From the NCBI GenBank assembly GCA_938001995.1, contig CALLAV010000285.1, positions 1-19,504 on the forward strand: a stretch of DNA of 19,504 nt. The letters run 5' to 3'. Position 1 is the first letter of the stretch; each line of letters begins with the position of its first letter. The translations under genes were made by a program, and so were the position numbers. This DNA is from an uncultured Amylibacter sp. Lineage in GTDB: Bacteria; Pseudomonadota; Alphaproteobacteria; Rhodobacterales; Rhodobacteraceae. Shown one piece after another: positions 1 to 10,562 of this stretch. Below the pieces are notes generated by a model. The model was not told the DNA's origin. It worked only from the letters and a program-made list of their open reading frames with translations, and ran no database searches.

Positions 1-5
1 CGCAC

Positions 6-1025
6 CTAGTCTTTTTTTTCTGATTTTCTAAGGTAAACATTCGTCTTGCACAAAATTTCCTTCGTTCGTTCTTTGTTTATAACCGCTTCCACCGTTTTTT
101 CAGATAAATCCCAAACATCGTGAGCAATGATAGCTGAATACCCACCTTCATTCAACTTAGCGCGAGCTATCGAAGTCAACTCATGCCCAATAAGCACTAT
201 GCCTTCCTTTTTTGCCCAATTTGAAATTTTTTGAATTAGATATGGCTGCCCACCACCAGCAAGATAAATCCCTTTTAATTTAGGTCGCACCGAAAGCAAG
301 CTATCCAAGATCATGTCCACCCTCGTCGTATTTGTCTCATAAGGCAACGTGGGCGATATTGTGAGTCCTGGCTTGTTTTTAGAAATATAAGCTGCGAATC
401 CCATTTGCCTTTCTAAAAGGTGCCGAAAACGACTGTGCCCGATCAACACGGCGATCTCTCCCTGATCATATTGGACAAACTGCGACATTAACCTACCTGC
501 CTCGTTCCCTGCTTCAAAATTGTTTTGCCCAATGTAAGTACTGCGTTTTGACGATGGTACATCGGATACAATTGTTATCACTTCTATACCTTGGGCAACA
601 ATTCGGTTGATTGCATTTTCAACTTCCGGCGTGTCGACACCAACTGTTACAACTATTGAGGTAGTCGTCGGCACTGACAATAAGCGCTCTATCAAATTTT
701 TTGGATCATACGGGTCAAATTTGTCGAACGTGAATTTGTAGTTTGGATTCGACCTAGCTTCGATAGCTAGGGACACTCCTTGTTCAAGCTGCTCAAAAAA
801 CGGGTTTGTTCCCTCTGACAAAAGCACTCTAACGGCAGCGATTTGAGGGGAGGTCCACTTGTTTGTTGAATCTTTGGTAAAACCCTGCTGCCTCAAAACA
901 GCTTCAACTTTATCGGCAGCCTTCTTGCTAACGTAGCCTTCACCAGTTAGTACACGATTTATTGTTGATCCGCTAAGTCCAGTTATTCGCTTGACTATGG
1001 TTAGCTTGGATTCCGTTTTAGTCAT
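6..1025 (-). CDS. LacI-family transcriptional regulator with a sugar-binding-protein-like effector domain
   Basis: This 339-residue protein is a probable DNA-binding repressor. An N-terminal LacI-type helix-turn-helix is visible at about residues 8-50 (SGSTINRVLTGEGYVSKKA), followed by a periplasmic-binding-protein fold of the type shared with sugar ABC transporter binding proteins; VVTVGVDTPEVENAINR and YIGQNNFEAGNEAGRLM match the ligand-domain segments of that family. Members usually respond to a sugar or polyol, but no target operon is in view and the ligand cannot be named. The recognition helix differs from the usual TVSRVLN form (TINRVLT). No strong ribosome binding site precedes the ATG. 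It lies in AT-rich DNA, 178 bp downstream of the LysR-type gene on the same strand, and 5 bp from the window edge. Family assignment is fairly secure; the ligand is unknown. Confidence 0.85.
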   Translation of the reverse strand: MTKTESKLTIVKRITGLSGSTINRVLTGEGYVSKKAADKVEAVLRQQGFTKDSTNKWTSPQIAAVRVLLSEGTNPFFEQLEQGVSLAIEARSNPNYKFTFDKFDPYDPKNLIERLLSVPTTTSIVVTVGVDTPEVENAINRIVAQGIEVITIVSDVPSSKRSTYIGQNNFEAGNEAGRLMSQFVQYDQGEIAVLIGHSRFRHLLERQMGFAAYISKNKPGLTISPTLPYETNTTRVDMILDSLLSVRPKLKGIYLAGGGQPYLIQKISNWAKKEGIVLIGHELTSIARAKLNEGGYSAIIAHDVWDLSEKTVEAVINKERTKEILCKTNVYLRKSEKKD

Positions 1026-1203
1026 TTACTCACAACAGGTTTAACGCACTTCATCGACTGATTTTCACCTAATTACTTCCCATTGTTTCCTCTTTGTTAA
1101 AGCAGGGAAATGTCCCTATTTCTCAAAGATTAAAAAAATGAATGGAGATTGCGTAAGGTAATATTTTGCACCTATCGACTAATTGAGGCTATTTTAAGGA
1201 AAA

Positions 1204-2139
1204 TTATCCAAAATATTCTTTGTTAAATTCGGTAAATACGCTTATTGCAAGTTCACGAAGCAAAATATTTCTAGAGTCCAATTCATGCCTTTTGTGCCAA
1301 ACCAACTCAAACTTCACAGGCTTGCATTCGAAAGGGCAGTCGACATGATTTAGTTCGGAAAACACGGAGTGTTTAAGGCGCTCTTGCATGGTGGCAATGT
1401 ATCGGCTTCCCTGTATAATGCTAGACAATGCGTAGACGTTTGCGACGCCGATTGCCATGTTTCTCGTACCCTGCATCTTGGAAACAATCTTTGTGACTGT
1501 ACTCTTTTTTGCCCCGCCAAAATCAAGCGAGGCATGTTCAGCTTCAAAATACTCTTCGATCGTTTTGATTGGTGTTCTAAATTTAGCATCATAGAAAATC
1601 CGCAGTGGATCTGATGTTAATACATGCCTTCCAAGTGTGACAGGATTGTCTTCGGCTTGAACCGAAATAGCGATATCTGCAATTTCGTTGTTTAAGAGAT
1701 TTTCCAAATTACCTCGAGACCCAAGCTCGATCAAACGTAAAGGAGCTTTGGGTATTGCAGTTTTGAGCTGTCGGATTAACTCTGAAAGTTCCAAACATAA
1801 TTCCGTTACATTGGCAGCGATCGTAATGGTTCTTTTATCTTCATTCGGATTAAAGAGATCAGAGTATACTAACGATTCAATTCTTGAAACGATGTCACTG
1901 GCGCGAGGCGCAACCGCAAGAGCCGCGCTAGTTGGCACCAGCCCCCTACCGGAACGAACGAACAATGTGTCCCCAATAGCAAATCTCAACTTTTCTAAAG
2001 AATGACTAGCCGTGGATTGATTTATTTCAAAAAACTCCGCTGCTTTTGTTACAGAACCTGTTTCTATTACCTTGAGAAAGACTCTAAGCGTATGAGCATC
2101 AATCCTATCGATATTGAAATTTTGCATTGATTTTCTCAC
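1204..2139 (-). CDS. LysR-family transcriptional regulator
   Basis: The product is a 311-residue LysR-type regulator, the usual length. The winged helix-turn-helix occupies about residues 14-75, with the characteristic LRVFLKVIETGSVTKAAEFF and STASHSLEKLR segments. The rest is the LysR substrate-binding domain (TITIAANVTE onwards). The track start is GTG at 2139; an ATG four codons inside (2127) directly before QNFNIDRIDAHTLRVF, with GAGAAA just upstream, is an equally good start. LysR proteins often control a divergently transcribed neighbour; here the divergent genes are the two very small ORFs beginning at 2284, so control of those is possible but is inference only. The base composition is AT-rich like the LacI gene. 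Target and inducer are unknown. Confidence 0.88.
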   Translation of the reverse strand: MRKSMQNFNIDRIDAHTLRVFLKVIETGSVTKAAEFFEINQSTASHSLEKLRFAIGDTLFVRSGRGLVPTSAALAVAPRASDIVSRIESLVYSDLFNPNEDKRTITIAANVTELCLELSELIRQLKTAIPKAPLRLIELGSRGNLENLLNNEIADIAISVQAEDNPVTLGRHVLTSDPLRIFYDAKFRTPIKTIEEYFEAEHASLDFGGAKKSTVTKIVSKMQGTRNMAIGVANVYALSSIIQGSRYIATMQERLKHSVFSELNHVDCPFECKPVKFELVWHKRHELDSRNILLRELAISVFTEFNKEYFG

Positions 2140-2283
2140 GCAAGCTAATTGTATTAGTAACCTTTTTGTGAGTTAGTAGTATTTAGTAATTTGATGCAAG
2201 GCTTTAGGGGAATCCAGCATCAGGCCGCTCCATGTAAGAAATCGATTTTTTCGATATCAAGAACTCGGATAGGAAAGACCCAA

Positions 2284-2469
2284 ATGAATAATGAACCTCC
2301 TACAACTCCAATCTTCGATGATTCCACTGGCCTTGAAATAGAAGCGTTGTCTCGCATGTTTGACTACTTGTTGGAGTCTCTATCAGACGCTGGAAGTGAA
2401 AAGGCTGTTTATGCTGTTAAGGCTGCAAAGTCAGTAATGCTAAACGAATTTACCGGTAAGGAAATCTGA
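2284..2469 (+). CDS. Small hypothetical protein (61 aa)
   Basis: This is an unrecognised small gene. I chose the ATG at 2284 (MNNEPPTTPIFDD) rather than the longer frame from 2191 because AGGAAAG lies about six bases before it and the upstream 31 residues look like untranslated leader. The 61-residue product is acidic at its N-terminus and then forms a likely amphipathic helix (LEIEALSRMFDYLLESLSDAGSEKAVYAVKAAKSVML), with no signal peptide or membrane segment. It is followed after 14 bp by a second small gene with a strong ribosome binding site, so the two look like a bicistron. It is divergent from the LysR-type gene. Function is unknown. Confidence 0.6.
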   Translation: MNNEPPTTPIFDDSTGLEIEALSRMFDYLLESLSDAGSEKAVYAVKAAKSVMLNEFTGKEI

Positions 2470-2483
2470 AAAGGAGAGATTTA

Positions 2484-2678
2484 ATGTCTAATCACATTTG
2501 GATGGAAGAAGTGTTACAAGACCTAGAAGTTTATTGTGAAGCAAATCAACTAAGATGCACCAAGGATTTGCTTATAGCGGCATCTAAAGTCCTAGAAACT
2601 GAGGGAAGTAGCGATGACCCGATATCTTGCAAAGTAATTTCTTTGAATTCAGCAAAGATAAAAAGAACAACTCATTGA
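2484..2678 (+). CDS. Small hypothetical protein (64 aa)
   Basis: This is an unrecognised 64-residue soluble protein. A very good ribosome binding site (AAGGAGAG) lies seven bases before the ATG, the strongest evidence that it is real. The first 40 residues (MSNHIWMEEVLQDLEVYCEA and following) predict two short helices; the pattern W-x-x-x-V-L-x-D-L-x-x-[FY] resembles small uncharacterised proteins I associate with roseobacter genomes, but that is recollection and not a firm family match. It has no transmembrane segment. It is probably cotranscribed with the 61-residue gene just upstream. It could be a small regulatory or accessory protein of the putative island. Confidence 0.65.
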   Translation: MSNHIWMEEVLQDLEVYCEANQLRCTKDLLIAASKVLETEGSSDDPISCKVISLNSAKIKRTTH

Positions 2679-2739
2679 GGGGTGTAACGCGTCACAGCCT
2701 TTAAGACAGACATACACAGAACTGAATAGCTGCAGTGCG

Positions 2740-2868
2740 ATGAACGTCCGGTCTGGTTAAGCTGCATTGCAACGTCCGGGTGATTAGTGAAAGTCCGCTT
2801 AGGACCGATATCAGGCTCCAATCATCGGCGGAATTTGCCGATGCTGCGCGTTGTACGAAAGTCCACTT
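2740..2868. repeat. Degenerate repeat-rich intergenic patch
   Basis: The 226-bp gap between the small gene and the SDR gene holds internal repeats. The 9-mer AACGTCCGG occurs at 2743-2751 and 2771-2779. GAAAGTCCGCTT at 2789-2800 recurs with one change as GAAAGTCCACTT at 2857-2868. A perfect stem CATCGGC/GCCGATG with a 7-nt loop spans 2823-2843. An open frame on the minus strand (2701-2904) covers this but looks non-coding. The overall look is that of a dispersed, decaying intergenic element of the kind scattered through roseobacter genomes; whether copies exist elsewhere cannot be seen here. Confidence 0.4.
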
Positions 2869-2904
2869 TGGCGAAGCATGAACTATACTTTTCCGGTAAG
2901 GCAA

Positions 2905-3852
2905 TCAAAAGTCCCACCTAAACCCCGTCACCTCTTCCGAGACTTCCCAGAGCTTTTCCATGACCGCTTTGTCGTAGGCATGGGGGTTTAGCGTACCCTT
3001 TCCAACCGGTCCGCCCGTTTGCATCAACCCTGTAGGTCCGTAAAGCGCACGTTGCTCCAGCCCGTCCTCGGTCGCGCACATGATTTCTGGGTAAGCGCCT
3101 TTCTCAGCGCTTTGAACCATTGGTGTTTTGCTCGTCAACCACCACGTCAACCGCGTCATCAGCCCGCCACTGGTGCTGATCAGAGATGTCGCAGAAGCGC
3201 CAGGGTGGCAGACGTAAACCTGAACGTTTTTGCCATTCTCTTTGAGGCGATCCTGTAACTCATATGCAAACATCATCTGCGCTAGCTTACTTTGGCTATA
3301 GACTGGATTGGCGCTGTAATTCTTGTCCCAATTCATGTCGTCGAACTGGATGGTTTTGATTCCCATATTGTAGCCAAGGCTAGCAACAACAACGATGCGG
3401 CCTTGGCTGGCTTCGATCCTATCAAACAGCATTCCACACAGCACGAAATGGCCGTAATGGTTTGTGCCAAGCTGGCTTTCGAACCCATCAACTGTGAACT
3501 TCTGAGTTGGCACCTGTGCGATAGCTGCGTTGCAGATCAGCGCGTCGATCTGCGGAACAATTTTCTTTACCTCTTCGGCGGCTTTACGAACGCTTGCCAG
3601 ATCAGACAGGTCCATCCGCACAAAACTAACATCGGCCTGTGCACCAAACTCGCCTTTCAACTCTTTGACAGCGGCGGTCGATTTATCTGCGCTACGGTTC
3701 AACATTACCACCTTTGCGCCCTTGGACAGAAAAGTGCGCGCGGCCTGAAACCCAGCACCCGCGTTGGCACCTGTAATGACGTAAGTTTTGCCTGCAAGTG
3801 ATCCGAGGCGCTCTGGCGCCCAACCTTTAGGGCCGAATGTTGTATCTGCCAT
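2905..3852 (-). CDS. Short-chain dehydrogenase/reductase (retinol-dehydrogenase/protochlorophyllide-reductase-like)
   Basis: This is an NAD(P)-dependent oxidoreductase of the classical SDR superfamily, 315 residues. The Rossmann glycine motif TGANAGAG is at 27-34, NAA at 108-110, the catalytic serine near 158 (VVVASLG), and the catalytic pair YSQSK (Tyr185, Lys189) is intact. The length and the insertion before the Tyr (about 160-180, DDMNWDKNYSANPVY) fit the group annotated as retinol dehydrogenase or light-dependent protochlorophyllide reductase-like; actual substrate unknown. GGAG lies seven bases before the ATG. It is divergent from an AraC-type regulator across a 169-bp gap, a common regulator/target layout, so control by that regulator is likely. 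The gene is less AT-rich than 1-2700. Confidence 0.9.
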   Translation of the reverse strand: MADTTFGPKGWAPERLGSLAGKTYVITGANAGAGFQAARTFLSKGAKVVMLNRSADKSTAAVKELKGEFGAQADVSFVRMDLSDLASVRKAAEEVKKIVPQIDALICNAAIAQVPTQKFTVDGFESQLGTNHYGHFVLCGMLFDRIEASQGRIVVVASLGYNMGIKTIQFDDMNWDKNYSANPVYSQSKLAQMMFAYELQDRLKENGKNVQVYVCHPGASATSLISTSGGLMTRLTWWLTSKTPMVQSAEKGAYPEIMCATEDGLEQRALYGPTGLMQTGGPVGKGTLNPHAYDKAVMEKLWEVSEEVTGFRWDF

Positions 3853-3992
3853 TGTGTTGCTCCTTATGACGCCAGCATATTAGCTGCGTAATGCATGTTG
3901 ATGACCTGATATTGTAGATAGCTCTCGCTAACCTTTCGAAATAGATGGGATCGTCGCGAATACTTGCCTGATTGTATCAGTTGGGTTGTCAG

Positions 3993-4005
3993 CGGGAATT
4001 TCCCG
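3993..4005. promoter_or_regulatory. Palindrome in the SDR/AraC divergent promoter region
   Basis: CGGGAA-T-TTCCCG is a perfect 6-bp-arm dyad 17 bp before the AraC-type start codon, flanked by TGTC on the left and ACA on the right. It is the best operator candidate in the 169-bp divergent region. AraC proteins more often bind direct repeats, so a different regulator is possible. Confidence 0.4.
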
Positions 4006-4021
4006 ACATTAAATTGGCCAC

Positions 4022-4915
4022 ATGAGTAAACAACGTATCAAACAGCTTATCAAAGACCGCACTGACCGAGACGGTTTGACGGAAACTGGCATTCGAGGTG
4101 TGCGCCTGTTTCGGGCGACACAAGCGATCCCCTGTGTTCCGGCGGTGTATGAACCCAGTGTCGTTGCCATCGTCAACGGCTCTAAGGAGGCTATTCTGGA
4201 CGGCCACAGATATGTCTACGACAACAGCCATTACTTGTGCTGTCCCATGACAATGCCCGTGAAGGCCGGAACACCTACCGCATCAGTTGATAATCCTCTT
4301 CATGGTGTTTTCATCTCTTTGAACCTGCGGGTCATGACGGAACTTGCGTTAGAAATGGAAAATGTTGGCGGCACACTCCCCATGGTCAAAGGTGACTTGC
4401 GCGCGCAGGGAATCAGGTTGGCAAAGTGGGATGAGGGTTTCACCGACGCGCTGTTGCGTCTGTTGCAACTAGGTGCAAATCCAACGGATGTGGTTGTTCT
4501 AGGGGACGTTCGGCTACGCGAGTTATACTATGCGATCCTTCAAGGTGAGGCGGGCATGTTCGCTCGGCAGGCATTTGCTTCTGGAAATGCCATTGCACGG
4601 TCTATCGCACATGTGTCGTCCCATTTGGAGTCGCCAGTATCGGTTGATGATATGGCCGCACGTGCAGGCATGAGCCGCGCCGTATTTCATCGCAAGTTCA
4701 AACAAGTTACGACAATGGCCCCAATCCAATTTGTGAAATCAATGCGCCTAAATAACGCCGCCATGAAAATAGCGGGGGGCATGAATGTTAACGAAGCCGC
4801 AATCGGTGTGGGATACGTCAGCCCATCTCAATTCAGCAGAGAATTCAAACGCGTGTATGGTCAATCACCGCGACAGTGGAGTGAAGCGCAACAGCTGCCA
4901 ATTGGTACCATATGA
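4022..4915 (+). CDS. AraC-family transcriptional regulator with AraC_N (type II) sensor domain
   Basis: This 297-residue regulator has an N-terminal sensor domain (about 20-175) of the AraC_N type, recognisable from VYEPSVVAIVNGSKEAILDG followed by a Y-x-Y and the P-x-P-V-K-A segment. The C-terminal AraC double helix-turn-helix spans about 191-287 (VDDMAARAGMSRAVFHRKFK and AAIGVGYVSPSQFSREFKR, ending QSPRQW). Family members of this type often act on a neighbouring oxidoreductase gene; here the divergent SDR is the obvious candidate target. The ribosome binding site is weak (ttggccac). The inducer is not known. It lies inside the proposed island, near its right end. Confidence 0.92.
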   Translation: MSKQRIKQLIKDRTDRDGLTETGIRGVRLFRATQAIPCVPAVYEPSVVAIVNGSKEAILDGHRYVYDNSHYLCCPMTMPVKAGTPTASVDNPLHGVFISLNLRVMTELALEMENVGGTLPMVKGDLRAQGIRLAKWDEGFTDALLRLLQLGANPTDVVVLGDVRLRELYYAILQGEAGMFARQAFASGNAIARSIAHVSSHLESPVSVDDMAARAGMSRAVFHRKFKQVTTMAPIQFVKSMRLNNAAMKIAGGMNVNEAAIGVGYVSPSQFSREFKRVYGQSPRQWSEAQQLPIGTI

Positions 4916-4918
4916 TCA

Positions 4919-5300
4919 GTTTGAAGCTCGCCAAAAGCTAACCTTGATTGAGCAATCTGGAAGGGCAACTTTGTCCCGCTCTGTGTGAATTCAGTTAACT
5001 CGAATTTTGCATCTGCAGCGAAGTTCCGGTCTTACAGATTGCGCTGCAGCAACTAGACCTGTCGGCCAAGGTCGGCAATGGACCGCAAAGGACAAAAAAC
5101 TGCCCCTCAAAAGTGCAGGCTCTGCGCAGCGGCTAGAGGGCGACAACGTTGTCGATGTTCTTGTGTGTAAATTGTGTGTAAATGGACATCAACGCCCAAA
5201 AACAAGAAAGGATGACGGTACTCCAACATTTTGTATATTTTTCAATATTTTAAAATGAACTTCAAACTGAAAAACATCCATAAACAGAGCATGACAATTA
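4919..5300. other. Gene-free stretch with inverted and tandem repeats next to the att-like site
   Basis: I see no convincing gene here; the open frame 5007-5258 lacks a ribosome binding site and coding character. It holds an inverted repeat CTGCAGCG (5013-5020) / CGCTGCAG (5042-5049), a perfect 14-bp palindrome CGACAACGTTGTCG (5141-5154), and an exact tandem duplication of TTGTGTGTAAA (5161-5171 and 5172-5182). The last 80 bases are strongly AT-rich. Such repeats next to an attachment site could be recombinase arm-type or accessory-factor sites, but that is inference. Confidence 0.4.
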
Positions 5301-5345
5301 CTTTTAATCAGTAGGTCGATGGTTCGAACCCATCAGGGCTCACCA
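5301..5345 (+). pseudogene. 3' half of tRNA-Lys(UUU): probable attachment-site duplicate of an integrated element
   Basis: The sequence runs from the first base of the anticodon loop to the CCA end. CTTTTAA (5301-5307) is a loop with anticodon TTT, TCAGT (5308-5312) the 3' anticodon strand, AGGTC the variable region. GATGG-TTCGAAC-CCATC (5318-5334) is a perfect T arm, AGGGCTC (5335-5341) the 3' acceptor strand, then A and CCA. The 5' half is absent: no GAGCCCT, no D arm, and the five bases before the loop (AATTA) do not pair properly with TCAGT. The sharp start at the anticodon loop is a known crossover position for tyrosine integrases. With this orientation the integrated DNA lies to the left. 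Confidence 0.8.
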
Positions 5346-5377
5346 CTTTACTCCTTTCGAACACAATCACTGATCAC

Positions 5378-5391
5378 ACGAACGCGTTCGT
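5378..5391. promoter_or_regulatory. 14-bp perfect palindrome upstream of the polyketide synthase gene
   Basis: ACGAACGCGTTCGT is a perfect palindrome, extendable to 20 bp (5375-5394) with one mismatched pair. It sits 75 bp before the polyketide synthase ATG and 33 bp after the tRNA 3' end. It may be an operator for the polyketide synthase operon, or what is left of the tRNA gene's terminator, since TTTGTG follows it. Confidence 0.4.
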
Positions 5392-5465
5392 TTGTGTCGG
5401 GGCGCTGTCTTGTGAGTGTATTCGCATTAGATGTACTGTGAAGCGACACCACACAAGGGGCCATA

Positions 5466-6527
5466 ATGTCAGTCTACCTTCACGGCCTCTCAACGGCACT
5501 TCCACCACATACCTTGCCTCAAGCGCAGGTGCAGGAGCGGGCGGCGATCATTTTTGGTGACAAGTATCCACAGTTTTCCCGTCTGGCCAAAGCCTTTGTG
5601 ACAGCCGAGATAGACCAACGTCATTCCGTCGTCCCGCTTGATTGGTTTTCTGATCCCCATGGCTGGAAAGATCGAAACGAGATTTTCATGGTTGAGGCCA
5701 AGAAGATGTTTATTACCGCAGCGCAGGCGGCACTGCAAAATGCGGGCTGGAACGGTTCAGACGTGGATACGGTTGTAACTGTGTCTTCCACAGGGATTGC
5801 GACTCCTACGCTTGAAGCGCAGGCGTTCAGCGAAATGGGGTTTCGCACCGATATCATGCGTGTGCCGCTTTTCGGCTTGGGGTGTGCGGGTGGCGTATCA
5901 GGCTTGTCTGTCGCGCAATCGCTGGCATCAGCCAAACCGAATTCCAACGTCCTACTCGTCATCGTAGAAACCTGCTCGCTCGCCTTTCGCGCGGACCGAT
6001 TGCAGAAAGCCGATATCATCGCATCCGTCTTGTTTGGCGACGGCGCGGCCGCCGCTTGCATATCAACAAGCCACCCTGAAACCCGCGAAATTACCTTGGC
6101 TGGCGGGTATCAGAAAATCTGGCCAGACACGCTCGGCATAATGGGGTGGGATGTGGATGAGACAGGGTTCGGCGTGGTGTTTGATCGATCTATCCCCAGC
6201 TTTGTCACCGATCACTTCGCGCCAGCCGTAAAGGACGCGTTGAGTGCCTGCAATCTGACCCACGAAGATATTGACCGTTATGTCTGCCACCCAGGCGGCA
6301 CTAAGGTTGTCGAAGCAATTGAGGGTGCGCTGCACCTAAACCAAGGCAGTTTGAGTGCCGAACGCGACGTACTACGTCGCGCAGGCAATATGTCTGCACC
6401 CACAGTCCTGTTCGTTATGGACACTGTGCTAAAACAGGGCGACACAGGCCAAATGATGGCCTGTGCCCTTGGACCCGGGTTCACTGCGTCCTTCCTCCCC
6501 TTTCACGTTGGCCAAGGATTAAACTGA
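5466..6527 (+). CDS. Type III polyketide synthase (chalcone/alkylpyrone synthase-like)
   Basis: The enzyme should condense an acyl-CoA starter with malonyl-CoA units and cyclise the product to an alkylpyrone, alkylresorcinol or similar ring. Its 353 residues are the family's usual length. The catalytic triad is complete: Cys140 in FGLGCAGG, His275 in CHPGG, Asn308 in GNMSAP. GFGVVFDRSIP (234-244) and the C-terminal GPGFT loop are also typical of bacterial members of the BpsA/PKS10-11/SrsA kind. AAGGGG precedes the ATG. Its stop codon overlaps the start of a membrane methyltransferase (TGATG), implying translational coupling and a joint pathway. The starter chain and the product cannot be read from sequence. 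A palindrome at 5378-5391 may control it. Confidence 0.93.
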   Translation: MSVYLHGLSTALPPHTLPQAQVQERAAIIFGDKYPQFSRLAKAFVTAEIDQRHSVVPLDWFSDPHGWKDRNEIFMVEAKKMFITAAQAALQNAGWNGSDVDTVVTVSSTGIATPTLEAQAFSEMGFRTDIMRVPLFGLGCAGGVSGLSVAQSLASAKPNSNVLLVIVETCSLAFRADRLQKADIIASVLFGDGAAAACISTSHPETREITLAGGYQKIWPDTLGIMGWDVDETGFGVVFDRSIPSFVTDHFAPAVKDALSACNLTHEDIDRYVCHPGGTKVVEAIEGALHLNQGSLSAERDVLRRAGNMSAPTVLFVMDTVLKQGDTGQMMACALGPGFTASFLPFHVGQGLN

Positions 6528-7024
6528 TGCAAACTGGCGCGCTGCTTTTCCTTGGCTTTATTGTTCTACAACGACTGTCTGAACTGGCCATATCAAAGGC
6601 GAACACCAAACGCCTTTTGGCCCGTGGTGCGTATGAGGTGGGCGCAAACCACTACCCCGCGATGGTCGCCATGCATTCTGCTTGGATCGTTTGTTTGGTG
6701 GTGTTTGGCTACACTCAACCGGTCTCGTTATTTTGGCTCGCGATCTTTGCGGTGCTGCAAACCTTTCGCGTTTGGATCCTTGCGAGCCTTGGATCACGTT
6801 GGACCACGCGGATCATCATCCTCGAAGAACCGCTCGTCACCCGTGGCCCTTTCAAACTCATCCGCCACCCGAACTACGTGCTTGTCATCGCAGAGATCAT
6901 TGTCGCACCCATGGTGCTGGGCCTTTGGTGGGTTGCCGCCCTGTTTACGGTGTTAAACGCCGCCATGCTTTGGGTGCGTATTGGGGCCGAAGAACGCGCC
7001 CTTGCTCCGCTGCGTGATCAATAG
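6527..7024 (+). CDS. Isoprenylcysteine carboxyl methyltransferase-family membrane methyltransferase
   Basis: This 165-residue integral membrane protein has about four hydrophobic helices (roughly 5-20, 45-65, 68-85, 117-148) and the ICMT signature at its C-terminal half: RGPFKLIRHPNYV (106-118, with the SAM-binding RHPNY) and RIGAEERAL (151-159). Bacterial relatives paired with type III polyketide synthases (SrsB in Streptomyces griseus, BpsB in Bacillus subtilis) O-methylate the phenolic or pyrone product. Here the one-base overlap with the polyketide synthase gene strongly supports that role, so membrane-located O-methylation of the polyketide is inferred. It does not need a prenylcysteine substrate. 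Its last seven bases overlap the end of the convergent dctM gene. Confidence 0.87.
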   Translation: MQTGALLFLGFIVLQRLSELAISKANTKRLLARGAYEVGANHYPAMVAMHSAWIVCLVVFGYTQPVSLFWLAIFAVLQTFRVWILASLGSRWTTRIIILEEPLVTRGPFKLIRHPNYVLVIAEIIVAPMVLGLWWVAALFTVLNAAMLWVRIGAEERALAPLRDQ

Positions 7025-8340
7025 ATCAGCCAGACCAAACCGAGCGTAATCGCTGGCAGTGCCAATAGAATCCCGACTCGCACCAGATCGGCGATCACAA
7101 AGGGCAGCGTGCCACGGAATGTTTCGGATATCGGCGTATCTTTGTCGAGCGCGTTGATCACAAACAGATTCATGCCAACGGGCGGCGTAATCAGCCCGAC
7201 CTCTACCACGATCAAAACAAGGATGCCGAACCATAGGCCGAAATCATCTGGGCTCATGCCAAAATCAAGGCCGACCATGATGGGATAGAAGATTGGCACG
7301 GTCAGCAGGATCATCGACAGGCTGTCCATGATGCAACCAAACACCAGATACAGCGCCAGCACCGCAAACAGCACCAGCCACGGGCTGAACCCTTGCGAAC
7401 CGACCCAAGATGCCGTGTTTTGCGGCAACTGCGTTAGCGCGAGGAAGTTGTTGAACAATGACGCGCCCAGAATGATCATAAAGATCATACCCGTGGATTT
7501 CGCGGTGCCTAAAATGGCATCGCCCGTTTTTCGCAGGTTCAACTGCCCCGAGAATATCGCCAAAAGGCCCGTACCTGCTGCACCTACGGCAGCGGCTTCG
7601 GTCGGGGTGAAGAAGCCGAAATAAATACCGCCCACAACGGCCAAGAAGATGGTCAGAACAGGCCAAACCTTGAGCAATGCCTTGAGGCGTTCCTCATAGG
7701 TCTTGCGCTCCAAAACTGTGCCGCCTTCGTTTTTTAAGCGCACCAAAATTGCGATAGTGATCATGTAACCCGCCGCGGCCAGCACACCAGGGATCATCGC
7801 TGCCACAAACAGTTTGGCGATGTTCAGTTCCGTCAGGATCGCATAGATCACCAGAACCACAGAGGGCGGGATCAAAATGCCGAGCGTCCCACCAGCCGCC
7901 AACGCACCTGTCGCCAAGCGACCAGAATAGCCGTAACGTTTCAGCTCTGGCAGGGCCACTTGCCCCATCGTTGCGGCCGTTGCCAATGATGATCCACAGA
8001 TTGATCCAAAGCCCGCACAGGCCCCCACGGCGGACATGGCCACGCCACCCTTTAAATGACCAAGCCACGCCTCTGCCGCCTTAAACAGATCACGCGACAT
8101 GCCACTGATTGTTGCAAACTGGCCCATCAGCAAAAACAGCGGAATGATCGAAAACGAATAGTTGGCAAAGGTGCCAAACGTCATGTTCTTTAACTGCGCC
8201 AACGTCATGGTCGGCGTGCCCGTCACCAGCCATGTGCCACAAAATCCGATCAACGCCATCGCTGGGCCAATAGGAATGCGCAGGAACAGCAGAACCAAAA
8301 GGGCAGGAAAGGACCAGAGGCCAATCTCAAAATTGCTCAC
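7018..8340 (-). CDS. TRAP transporter large membrane subunit (DctM-like), system 1
   Basis: This is the 12-helix channel-forming subunit of a TRAP transporter, energised by an ion gradient. I start it at the GTG at 8340 (VSNFEIGLWSFPALLVLL, 440 aa), because this overlaps the dctQ stop by four bases (GTGA); the open frame continues 13 codons further, but those would overlap dctQ. Family hallmarks are clear: GSICGSSLATAATMG, GTLGILIPPSVVLVIY, FFTPTEAAAVGAAG and LITPPVGMNLFVI. It overlaps the convergent methyltransferase gene by seven bases at its end, so the two operons finish inside each other with no room for a separate terminator. The substrate is set by the binding protein and is unknown. 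Confidence 0.95.
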   Translation of the reverse strand: MSNFEIGLWSFPALLVLLFLRIPIGPAMALIGFCGTWLVTGTPTMTLAQLKNMTFGTFANYSFSIIPLFLLMGQFATISGMSRDLFKAAEAWLGHLKGGVAMSAVGACAGFGSICGSSLATAATMGQVALPELKRYGYSGRLATGALAAGGTLGILIPPSVVLVIYAILTELNIAKLFVAAMIPGVLAAAGYMITIAILVRLKNEGGTVLERKTYEERLKALLKVWPVLTIFLAVVGGIYFGFFTPTEAAAVGAAGTGLLAIFSGQLNLRKTGDAILGTAKSTGMIFMIILGASLFNNFLALTQLPQNTASWVGSQGFSPWLVLFAVLALYLVFGCIMDSLSMILLTVPIFYPIMVGLDFGMSPDDFGLWFGILVLIVVEVGLITPPVGMNLFVINALDKDTPISETFRGTLPFVIADLVRVGILLALPAITLGLVWLIY

Positions 8341-8840
8341 GCTGTACCCCCAAAGGACCGCAAGGAACGGATAACGCAAAAGGCCGCTACGATGACAAAT
8401 ACCGCCATGCCCAGAACGCCTGACGCATAGGCCTGCCAGATCGGAAACTGCATGATGAACGTCGTTTCACCGTAGTTCAGTTTGTCGAGCATACCGAGCC
8501 ACAGGCGATAGCCACCAATCACCGCAATCGCCAGTAACAACAGGTCAGACACCAGATCTGACAGCAGGTTTTGCCATCGCGCAAAGGCGCTTTCAAACAG
8601 ATCGACCCGCGCGTGGCCTTTTGAATACTGTGTCCACGGCAGAAATGCGAAAACGGCGAATCCAACACCAAGTTCGACCATTTCATAATCGCCGTTTACT
8701 TGGTTGAGGCCAATAAAAGTAAGGGACCGCCCGAAAATACTGGCGCAAGTGATTGCAACCAACAAGATCAGGACGATCCCTCCAAGAATGGCCATGGCGC
8801 GCGCCAGAAAGCCAACAGATTTGTCGAGTGTGTCAAACAC
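8337..8840 (-). CDS. TRAP transporter small membrane subunit (DctQ-like), system 1
   Basis: This 167-residue protein with four hydrophobic helices is the small TRAP membrane component that docks with the large subunit. The conserved pattern is visible: LLVAITCASIFGRSL in helix 1, VGFAVFAFLPWTQYSKGHARVDLF in the middle, where the WTQYSKGHARVD segment is typical of DctQ proteins. The start is GTG at 8840, preceded by GGGGAG. It lies 30 bp after the binding-protein gene and overlaps dctM by four bases, so the three genes form one operon in the order P-Q-M. Confidence 0.92.
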   Translation of the reverse strand: MFDTLDKSVGFLARAMAILGGIVLILLVAITCASIFGRSLTFIGLNQVNGDYEMVELGVGFAVFAFLPWTQYSKGHARVDLFESAFARWQNLLSDLVSDLLLLAIAVIGGYRLWLGMLDKLNYGETTFIMQFPIWQAYASGVLGMAVFVIVAAFCVIRSLRSFGGTA

Positions 8841-8870
8841 TGTCAGCTCCCCGCCGCACGCTTTTGCGAT

Positions 8871-9917
8871 TTAGCCGCCGTTCGCTTTGATCAGCTCTTT
8901 GGCGCGTGAGATCAAGGCTTTGCCGTCGATACCTTTTGCGTCCATGTCAGCAATCCACGCTTCAATCACAGGCTGCGAGGCTGCTTTCCAACGGGCCACT
9001 TCGGCCTCGTCCAGCGTCACAATCGTGTTGCCTGCTTTTTCCGCAATCGCACGACCAGGTGCGTCTTTTTCCAGCATCTTGGTCGCTGCCAATTTCGACA
9101 GAACCATGCCGCTGTTGTCGTCCAAGATTTTGCGCAGATCTTCGGGCATGCTGTCGTATTTGGCTTTGTTCATCACGGTCAGAATCGCCGTTGTGTAGAG
9201 CGCTTCTTTGCCAGAAAATTCTGTGTGGTTGCTCACCAGTTCGGACAATCGCACGGCTGGCGTCACTTCCCACGGGATCACAGTTCCATCGATGACTTTC
9301 TTGGACAGTGCCTCAGGAATTGCAGGGACAGGCATACCAACCGCCGTCGCACCCAGCTCACCCAACAGGTTGTTGATTACACGGGTCGGGCCGCGCAATT
9401 TTTTACCCTTCATGTCTTCCAGTTTGGTCACGCCAGTTCCTGTGTGGATCACACCTGGGCCATGAACCCAAGCGCCCAGAACCTTCACGCGGCTGTATTC
9501 GTTGTTTTGGAAATCTTCCTCAACCATCTGTTGATACGCCAAGGACGTTGCAATGGAATCGGTCATCATGAATGGCAGCTCAAACACTTCCGTGCGTGGG
9601 AAACGACCTGGCGTATAACCCGCGACTGTCATGATAATATCGACAACACCGTCTTGCGCCTGATCCATCAGTTGTGGAGGACGACCACCCAAAGCCATTG
9701 CGTCGAAATGTTCTATCTTAATGCGCCCACCAGAGGCTTCTTCCACGCTGTTGGCCCAAGGAACGAGCACCAAAGACGGGATCGTTGCAGGCGGTGGCAG
9801 GAATTGGTGCAAGCGCAATGTCACGTCTTGCGCCACAGTTGGAACAGCGGTCATTGCTGTCATCATCACAGCCGCAACACCCGCAGCCGCCATCTTAAAC
9901 TTCGTTGAAATTGTCAT
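8871..9917 (-). CDS. TRAP transporter periplasmic substrate-binding protein (DctP-like), system 1
   Basis: The 348-residue protein captures the substrate in the periplasm for the downstream Q and M subunits. It has a Sec signal peptide (about 1-29, ending VPTVA-Q). The fold signature follows: VTLRLHQFLPPPATIPS at the N-terminus, GGRIKIEHFDAMALGG, and LEDMKGKKLRGPTRVINNLL carrying the conserved Arg that contacts a substrate carboxylate. The PGRFPRTEVFELPFMM segment separates it from classical C4-dicarboxylate binders, so the ligand is an organic acid of unknown type; I would not name it. GGGAGAG precedes the ATG. The 93-bp gap to the YHS gene on the same strand could carry its promoter. Confidence 0.94.
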   Translation of the reverse strand: MTISTKFKMAAAGVAAVMMTAMTAVPTVAQDVTLRLHQFLPPPATIPSLVLVPWANSVEEASGGRIKIEHFDAMALGGRPPQLMDQAQDGVVDIIMTVAGYTPGRFPRTEVFELPFMMTDSIATSLAYQQMVEEDFQNNEYSRVKVLGAWVHGPGVIHTGTGVTKLEDMKGKKLRGPTRVINNLLGELGATAVGMPVPAIPEALSKKVIDGTVIPWEVTPAVRLSELVSNHTEFSGKEALYTTAILTVMNKAKYDSMPEDLRKILDDNSGMVLSKLAATKMLEKDAPGRAIAEKAGNTIVTLDEAEVARWKAASQPVIEAWIADMDAKGIDGKALISRAKELIKANGG

Positions 9918-10010
9918 ATTTTCTCTCCCAGTATATCGGCCTTGCCGTACCCTAGGAATGTTTGTCTATTTACTTAACAAGTTCAACCGATAGTTTTTGA
10001 AAGCACTTTG

Positions 10011-10484
10011 CTATTCCAAACTCGCCCAAAATGCCTGCGCGTTTTCAATCATGGCATCCGCACCTTCATCGAATTTTGTGCCCCCAACGGGACGTGCAAA
10101 CATATACAGTTTATTGGCGTGAATGCGCCAAACTTCTGGGTCCGCTGGGACCAGCTTTTTGAACGAAGCCGCCCGTGTGCAATAGCCGCCAAACTGTGGT
10201 GCATAGCTTTCGGGACTGGACGCAAACAGGTCCGCTTCCTCTTGGCTGGCAAAACGCCACGTGGCGTCTTTCCAAACCACGGAATACACCTCAGACCCTT
10301 CGTTTGCGCTGTTTTTCAGGAAATACGCGGTCGTGTCATACCCGCGAATGGCCGTGCCTGTTGCCGCATCTTGCGCAATAGGACCTTTGGCAAATGTTGG
10401 TAAGGCCAGCGACACGCCCCCGACAAAAACAGATGCAATCAGCACAGCACGGCGGGTGGGTTTAAACGGATTTGGGTTAGACAC
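10011..10484 (-). CDS. YHS-domain exported protein with Tat-like signal
   Basis: This small protein carries a single YHS domain (about 47-115; AIRGYDTTAYF, ATWRFASQEEADLFASSP, YAPQFGGYCTRAAS), a module often linked to metal handling; the Cys in GGYC is the likely ligand. I start it at GTG 10484 (SNPNPFKPTRRAVLIAS, 157 aa): GGAGG sits five bases upstream, whereas the longer frame from TTG 10499 has the Shine-Dalgarno inside its coding sequence. The N-terminus has twin arginines (11-12) then a hydrophobic stretch ending LPTFA, a Tat-like export signal, so it should act in the periplasm. It sits between the DctD-like regulator and TRAP system 1, all on the minus strand. Its substrate or metal is unknown. 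Confidence 0.85.
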   Translation of the reverse strand: MSNPNPFKPTRRAVLIASVFVGGVSLALPTFAKGPIAQDAATGTAIRGYDTTAYFLKNSANEGSEVYSVVWKDATWRFASQEEADLFASSPESYAPQFGGYCTRAASFKKLVPADPEVWRIHANKLYMFARPVGGTKFDEGADAMIENAQAFWASLE

Positions 10485-10562
10485 TTCAGCCTCCATCAAA
10501 AGATCGGACCAAAGTTAACAACCTAACTGAAAACCCACCAATCACGTTCCCGTGGCGAAACG

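Follow-up and report, generated by a model that had tools for sequence, protein, structure and literature searches.

Integration into tRNA genes by a tyrosine integrase is a common mode of insertion, and the 5′ edge of the anticodon loop is a standard crossover place of these enzymes. Displaced tRNA gene fragments have been catalogued on a large scale: in the excerpted text of the Islander paper, 3760 islands have a displaced 3′ tDNA fragment, and sites centred on the anticodon are counted for 2083 (PMC4383910). Among the alphaproteobacteria, phiLM21-like prophages integrate in tRNA-Lys(CUU) of Sinorhizobium meliloti, according to the excerpted account of these phages (PMC12429752). For the Rhodobacteraceae, lysine is not among the tRNAs listed as used by prophages in the excerpted part of a further survey (PMC8224337).

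Here we analyze a stretch of 19,504 nucleotides (the window), which is the complete contig C285 of the MAG of an uncultured Amylibacter sp. (G000; 2.7 Mb, 352 contigs, 72% complete). Its segment 5301-5345 is very probably the right-hand attachment scar (attR) of a mobile element inserted in tRNA-Lys(UUU). As with the Islander islands in the excerpted description, a displaced 3′ tDNA fragment, an island on one side, and an anticodon-loop crossover would be combined at this locus, which differs from them in that one end is visible, whereas the regenerated tRNA and the integrase would lie off the contig (PMC4383910). Compared with the phiLM21-like prophages as excerpted, which carry a tyrosine-type integrase, the alphaproteobacterial host and the rebuilt tRNA-Lys target are alike; the isoacceptor differs (CUU there, UUU here), and the visible part of our element consists of regulators and a short-chain dehydrogenase/reductase (SDR), with no phage structural genes seen (PMC12429752). 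A third counterpart is provided by the viral contigs L102-L104 (IMG/VR), in which a tRNA-Lys(UUU)-type 3′ half starts at the same base and a 407-aa ORF ends 165 bp upstream of it, giving a weak Phage_integrase match (25.0-25.7 bits, against a curated cut-off of 27.1). These contigs differ from the window in their tRNA 3′ sequence, and no integrase was seen in the window's 5.3 kb of element.

RESULTS

The segment 5301-5345, which reads CTTTTAATCAGTAGGTCGATGGTTCGAACCCATCAGGGCTCACCA, is exactly the tRNA-Lys(UUU) 3′ half: it starts with the first anticodon-loop base and runs through CCA, with the 5′ half absent. In G003, G004, G015, and G031, the intact tRNA-Lys(ttt) genes have the same 45 bases, without a mismatch, as their 3′ part. 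ARAGORN called no tRNA over the window, and an Rfam scan of the window (E ≤ 5) returned no tRNA at 5301-5345 and one sub-threshold match away from the fragment, bearing out the sequence-only reading, which had described a perfect 3′ half lacking its 5′ partner. In the comparison with G003, A5300 agrees with the final 5′-strand base of the anticodon stem in the intact gene, so the block common to both comprises 46 bases (5300-5345) rather than 45. The 45-mer (≤2 mismatches) occurred in 11 of 61 genomes, once in each and G000 included, and its reversed-pattern control gave no match in any of the 61 at the same tolerance; a chance match of this length is therefore negligible. Identity to the intact gene ends at the 5′ edge of the anticodon loop, suggesting that the crossover probably took place within 5300..5307.

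The bases immediately upstream had also been proposed to echo the normal AGAGC...ACTGA faintly, with the crossover zone perhaps beginning earlier. An AGAGC string does stand at 5286-5290, and it is likewise what would speak for a decayed pseudo-tRNA whose 5′ half had mutated in place. When the 30 bases preceding the fragment were aligned with the real 5′ half, 8 of 30 ungapped positions agreed, and 46% of 5000 random 30-mers from window 1-5200 agreed as well or better (11.5% by gapped score). We therefore rejected an earlier crossover, the upstream similarity being at chance level, and this level against 45/45 in the 3′ half, along with the missing dapF described below, leaves the pseudo-tRNA a vanishingly small probability. 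A conserved TTA before the loop was also considered as a motif and rejected: it is common to G000, G017, and G025, found with a pattern that did not demand it, and in a looser junction panel A, C, and T all occur before the shared A. L102-L104 have TTA as well; the searches behind those loci and the genus junction set demanded it.

Our comparison with related genomes revealed what normally lies on either side of this tRNA gene. In G003, a same-genus genome assembled as one contig, the intact tRNA-Lys(ttt) (L038:7717-7792) ends 140 bp short of the type III polyketide synthase known from the window, and the methyltransferase, the two-component genes, and the second TRAP transporter genes follow as they do there. 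The predicted relative, in which the tRNA/polyketide synthase junction is free of the island, was thus seen. The window's first TRAP set (7018-9917), missing in G003, is present in G027, where the right-flank gene order of the window adjoins tRNA-Lys unchanged. In G031, G004, and G015, the intact tRNA flanks these two-component genes on the same side, with no polyketide synthase in between, and the order of the window from 10563 on is also kept there as far as these loci were fetched. An uninterrupted tRNA-Lys therefore occupies the corresponding place in G003, G031, G004, and G015, as expected for the target of an island. On the other side, dapF lies beside the tRNA in all six loci that show it (L038, L040, L043, L044, L045, and L091), and in five of them a radical SAM gene, which we take to be mtaB, follows beyond dapF, the sixth contig stopping before it. 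Neither gene is present in the window. Because the relatives share the right-hand genes and have dapF at the left, where the window lacks it, the DNA from 5301 rightward is well supported as the host's normal locus, and 1-5300 would be inserted DNA foreign to this locus. The arrangement first proposed, a displaced tRNA 3′ end with host DNA to its right and inserted DNA to its left, is supported by these loci. The coordinates are collected in Table 1.

The spot between tRNA-Lys and the two-component genes (5346-10562) itself varies: G000, G003, and G027 have the polyketide synthase and methyltransferase there, G031 and G015 have other genes, and G004 has no ORF of note. ARAGORN was applied to 30 of the 39 polyketide synthase loci of named genomes and detected an intact tRNA-Lys in none of these 30. 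In an Octadecabacter MAG (L065, 9484-9558), a tRNA-Val lies ~440 bp upstream of a similar polyketide synthase gene.

Table 1. Features of the window around the tRNA-Lys(UUU) fragment
Feature	Coordinates	Strand	Basis and remarks
Right-hand 5.3 kb of the putative inserted element	1..5299		Shares no gene with relatives' tRNA-Lys left flank (dapF, radical SAM gene)
LacI/periplasmic-binding-domain regulator, 339 aa	6..1025	-	PF13407 (9.3e-31); PF00356 (4.5e-05, below its curated cut-off)
LysR-family regulator, 311 aa	1204..2139	-	PF00126, PF03466
Small ORF without assigned function	2284..2469	+	From an ATG inside the 92-aa ORF 2191-2469; neither 2191-2469 nor 2287-2469 matches Pfam, and 2287-2469 does not match PHROGs
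Small ORF, 64 aa	2484..2678	+	No Pfam or PHROGs match
Short-chain dehydrogenase/reductase (SDR)	2905..3852	-	PF00106; two-gene block with the AraC gene
AraC-family regulator, 297 aa, last element gene before the junction	4022..4915	+	PF06719, PF12833
Displaced tRNA-Lys(UUU) 3′ half, read as attR	5300..5345	+	45/45 identity (46 with A5300) to same-genus intact genes, no tRNA called in the window; last 5′ anticodon-stem base, anticodon loop CTTTTAA, 3′ anticodon-stem strand, variable loop, T arm, acceptor 3′ strand, CCA
Probable crossover zone, made up of A5300 plus the 7-nt loop (CTTTTAA) of the anticodon arm	5300..5307	+	Comparison with G003 and four other junctions
Host right flank, as read from relatives: type III polyketide synthase, ICMT-type methyltransferase, TRAP transporter genes, response regulator and histidine kinase, second TRAP operon, PfkB kinase, nucleoside hydrolase, start of a dioxygenase-like gene	5346..19504		Gene order beside tRNA-Lys in relatives (G027, G003; part in G031/G004/G015)

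The composition and distribution of the left side divide it into two parts. The GC content rises from about 0.41 in 1-2900 to about 0.52 in the dehydrogenase/AraC part, with about 0.54 in the host part, so the AT-rich left end described from the bare sequence holds for about 1-2900 and fails for 2905-5300, the part nearest the fragment, which has host-like GC. In a search of 394 family genomes, our own included and with two candidate stretches scored per genome, 1-2900 was represented outside its own genome only by pieces of 33-49 bases at 2729-2880, in six genomes. This intergenic stretch, with its short pieces in six other Rhodobacteraceae genomes, is perhaps an interspersed repeat. The SDR/AraC block, whole or in part (at least 146 bases), was found in 43 other family genomes at up to 81% nucleotide identity, the 81% being reached in another genus; G020, the only other same-genus genome in the 394-genome sample, has the block at 67%. 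None of the 19 SDR/AraC loci that were fetched, with flanks of up to 1.5 kb, contained a tRNA-Lys fragment. Conservation of the fragment beside 1-5300 across distant roseobacters, which would have spoken against an island, was not seen in these searches. These observations fit the SDR/AraC block being a cassette of its own, picked up by the element or inserted beside it, and the element may be composite, since this part has host-like GC.

With respect to the kind of element, the phage collection gave no match to 1-5345, and the plasmid collection matched the SDR/AraC stretch only (7 records). When four window ORFs were compared with PHROGs, the two regulators matched a "DNA binding protein" family and a family without known function, and the two small ORFs matched nothing. 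Phage structural genes were thus not found in the visible 1-5345 by the phage collection or by PHROGs on these four ORFs. The ORFs of the visible 5.3 kb that were scanned with Pfam included no integrase, the nearest element-side gene being AraC.

Searches of the 72%-complete MAG with the 45-mer, a 40-base pattern (3 mismatches), the 5′ half (3 mismatches), and a 13-base anticodon-arm stretch found no intact tRNA-Lys(UUU), and the 45-mer had no copy in the MAG besides that of the window; the 28 tRNAs of this genome are listed without anticodons. A UUU tRNA is needed for reading AAA, and an intact copy should therefore lie in the missing part of the MAG, where it is probably located. The left end was also sought in the MAG by way of the left flank of G003 (L038:1-7750), which matched contig C181 (4382 bases), whose end corresponds to a place ~5.5 kb short of the tRNA; beyond C181, this flank matched the MAG only in C306, over 71 bases at 76% within the radical SAM gene, and the dapF region was not found in the 72%-complete MAG.

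The site is hard to assemble, because two contigs of G027 end and begin inside tRNA-Lys with about 36 bases in common, and a contig of G007 ends one base upstream of the 3′ half. Such repeat-induced breaks would favor an assembly artefact, in which the assembler used the 46-base repeat to fuse another piece (the attP arm of a free element, or another strain) with the host right flank. However, even then a tRNA-Lys 3′ half would be needed at the end of the left piece, itself pointing to an element with this att site, and the 45-mer was not found a second time in the MAG; we consider such an artefact quite unlikely.

Orphan 3′ halves like that of the window recur elsewhere. Counting junctions at the same break point, the boundary bases having been demanded by the search patterns, we found them in 3 of 33 same-genus genomes and in 6 of 394 family genomes (seven places), G000 included in both, and in 31 viral-contig stretches, which contain the near-copies L103/L104, L139/L158, L153/L156, and L143/L155/L159. 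ARAGORN detected no tRNA-Lys at loci L126-L159 and L102-L104, which are therefore not intact genes. An ORF of at least 150 aa lies within 1 kb upstream in 36 of 40 orphan loci, and 13 of these 36 match Phage_integrase (E ≤ 0.001), compared with 3 of 28 on the downstream side; an integrase stands beside the orphan fragment in about a third of the loci examined. Among the nine non-viral junctions (G000 included), an integrase adjoins in two (G287 and G192 C28), and at the G211 junction a reading frame truncated where the contig stops encodes an arm-binding domain. Neither was found at the remaining six: another gene is nearest in G000, G017, G192 (C1), and G231, and no such ORF is present in G381 and G025.

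These junctions bear on the possibility that an ordinary deletion or rearrangement cut the tRNA gene, a second tRNA-Lys elsewhere keeping the cell alive. The lack of an integrase among the Pfam-scanned window ORFs would agree with such an event, yet the break falls at the same base as in the other junctions, several of which lie beside integrases (that base was demanded by the searches), and the 45-mer occurs a single time in each of the 11 genomes that have it out of 61, making a deletion very improbable.

Two of the non-viral junctions showed features of their own. In G017, an intact tRNA-Lys and an orphan 3′ half lie on separate contigs (L089, L091; C8:26063-26110, C5:510204-510249), and the orphan contig includes 404 bp that repeat, at 99% identity, the end of the AMP-binding gene adjoining the intact tRNA, which gives the impression that part of the locus was carried away. 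In G025 (C22; L092, 1-737), the start of a radical SAM (mtaB-like) gene left of the orphan 3′ half runs into unrelated sequence, followed by a small ORF that weakly matches phage families without known function; this arrangement could represent a rearranged element end or a false join; no dapF is present at L092.

DISCUSSION

The most plausible course of events would be recombination at the anticodon loop between the host tRNA-Lys gene and a mobile element that brought its own copy of the tRNA-Lys(UUU) 3′ half, almost certainly by means of a tyrosine integrase. At the far left end, which lies beyond the window, the copy of the element would have joined the host 5′ half to give a complete gene, and the host's own 3′ half would have been displaced to the right end, where it now stands at 5301-5345 as attR. 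By this account, the intact copy would lie at the far end of the insert, the integrase would be encoded in the remainder of the element, and the insertion event itself is what we infer from the junction and the loci of relatives. The scar most likely stems from an island or a prophage.

Three Phage_integrase genes are encoded elsewhere in the MAG. None of the three could be linked to the tRNA-Lys site, the 45-mer being confined to the window and blastp showing no likeness to the L102 protein. In C274 (17119-18459; L098) of the same genome, a Phage_integrase gene (433-aa frame) lies about 0.8 kb past a tRNA-Arg(ACG), probably marking a second island. A variant of the proposed insertion would have the element lack an integrase of its own and be moved by that of another tRNA-Lys element, as a satellite-like island with a widely shared SDR/AraC block; we regard this as unlikely.

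A tRNA insertion scar is of a well-known, ordinary kind, and the attR read at 5301-5345 is one further case, cut by the contig end. For this Rhodobacteraceae genus, it shows tRNA-Lys(UUU) as an integration site. It also fixes the end of the inserted DNA to the base, so that 1-5300 is not to be read as core chromosome.
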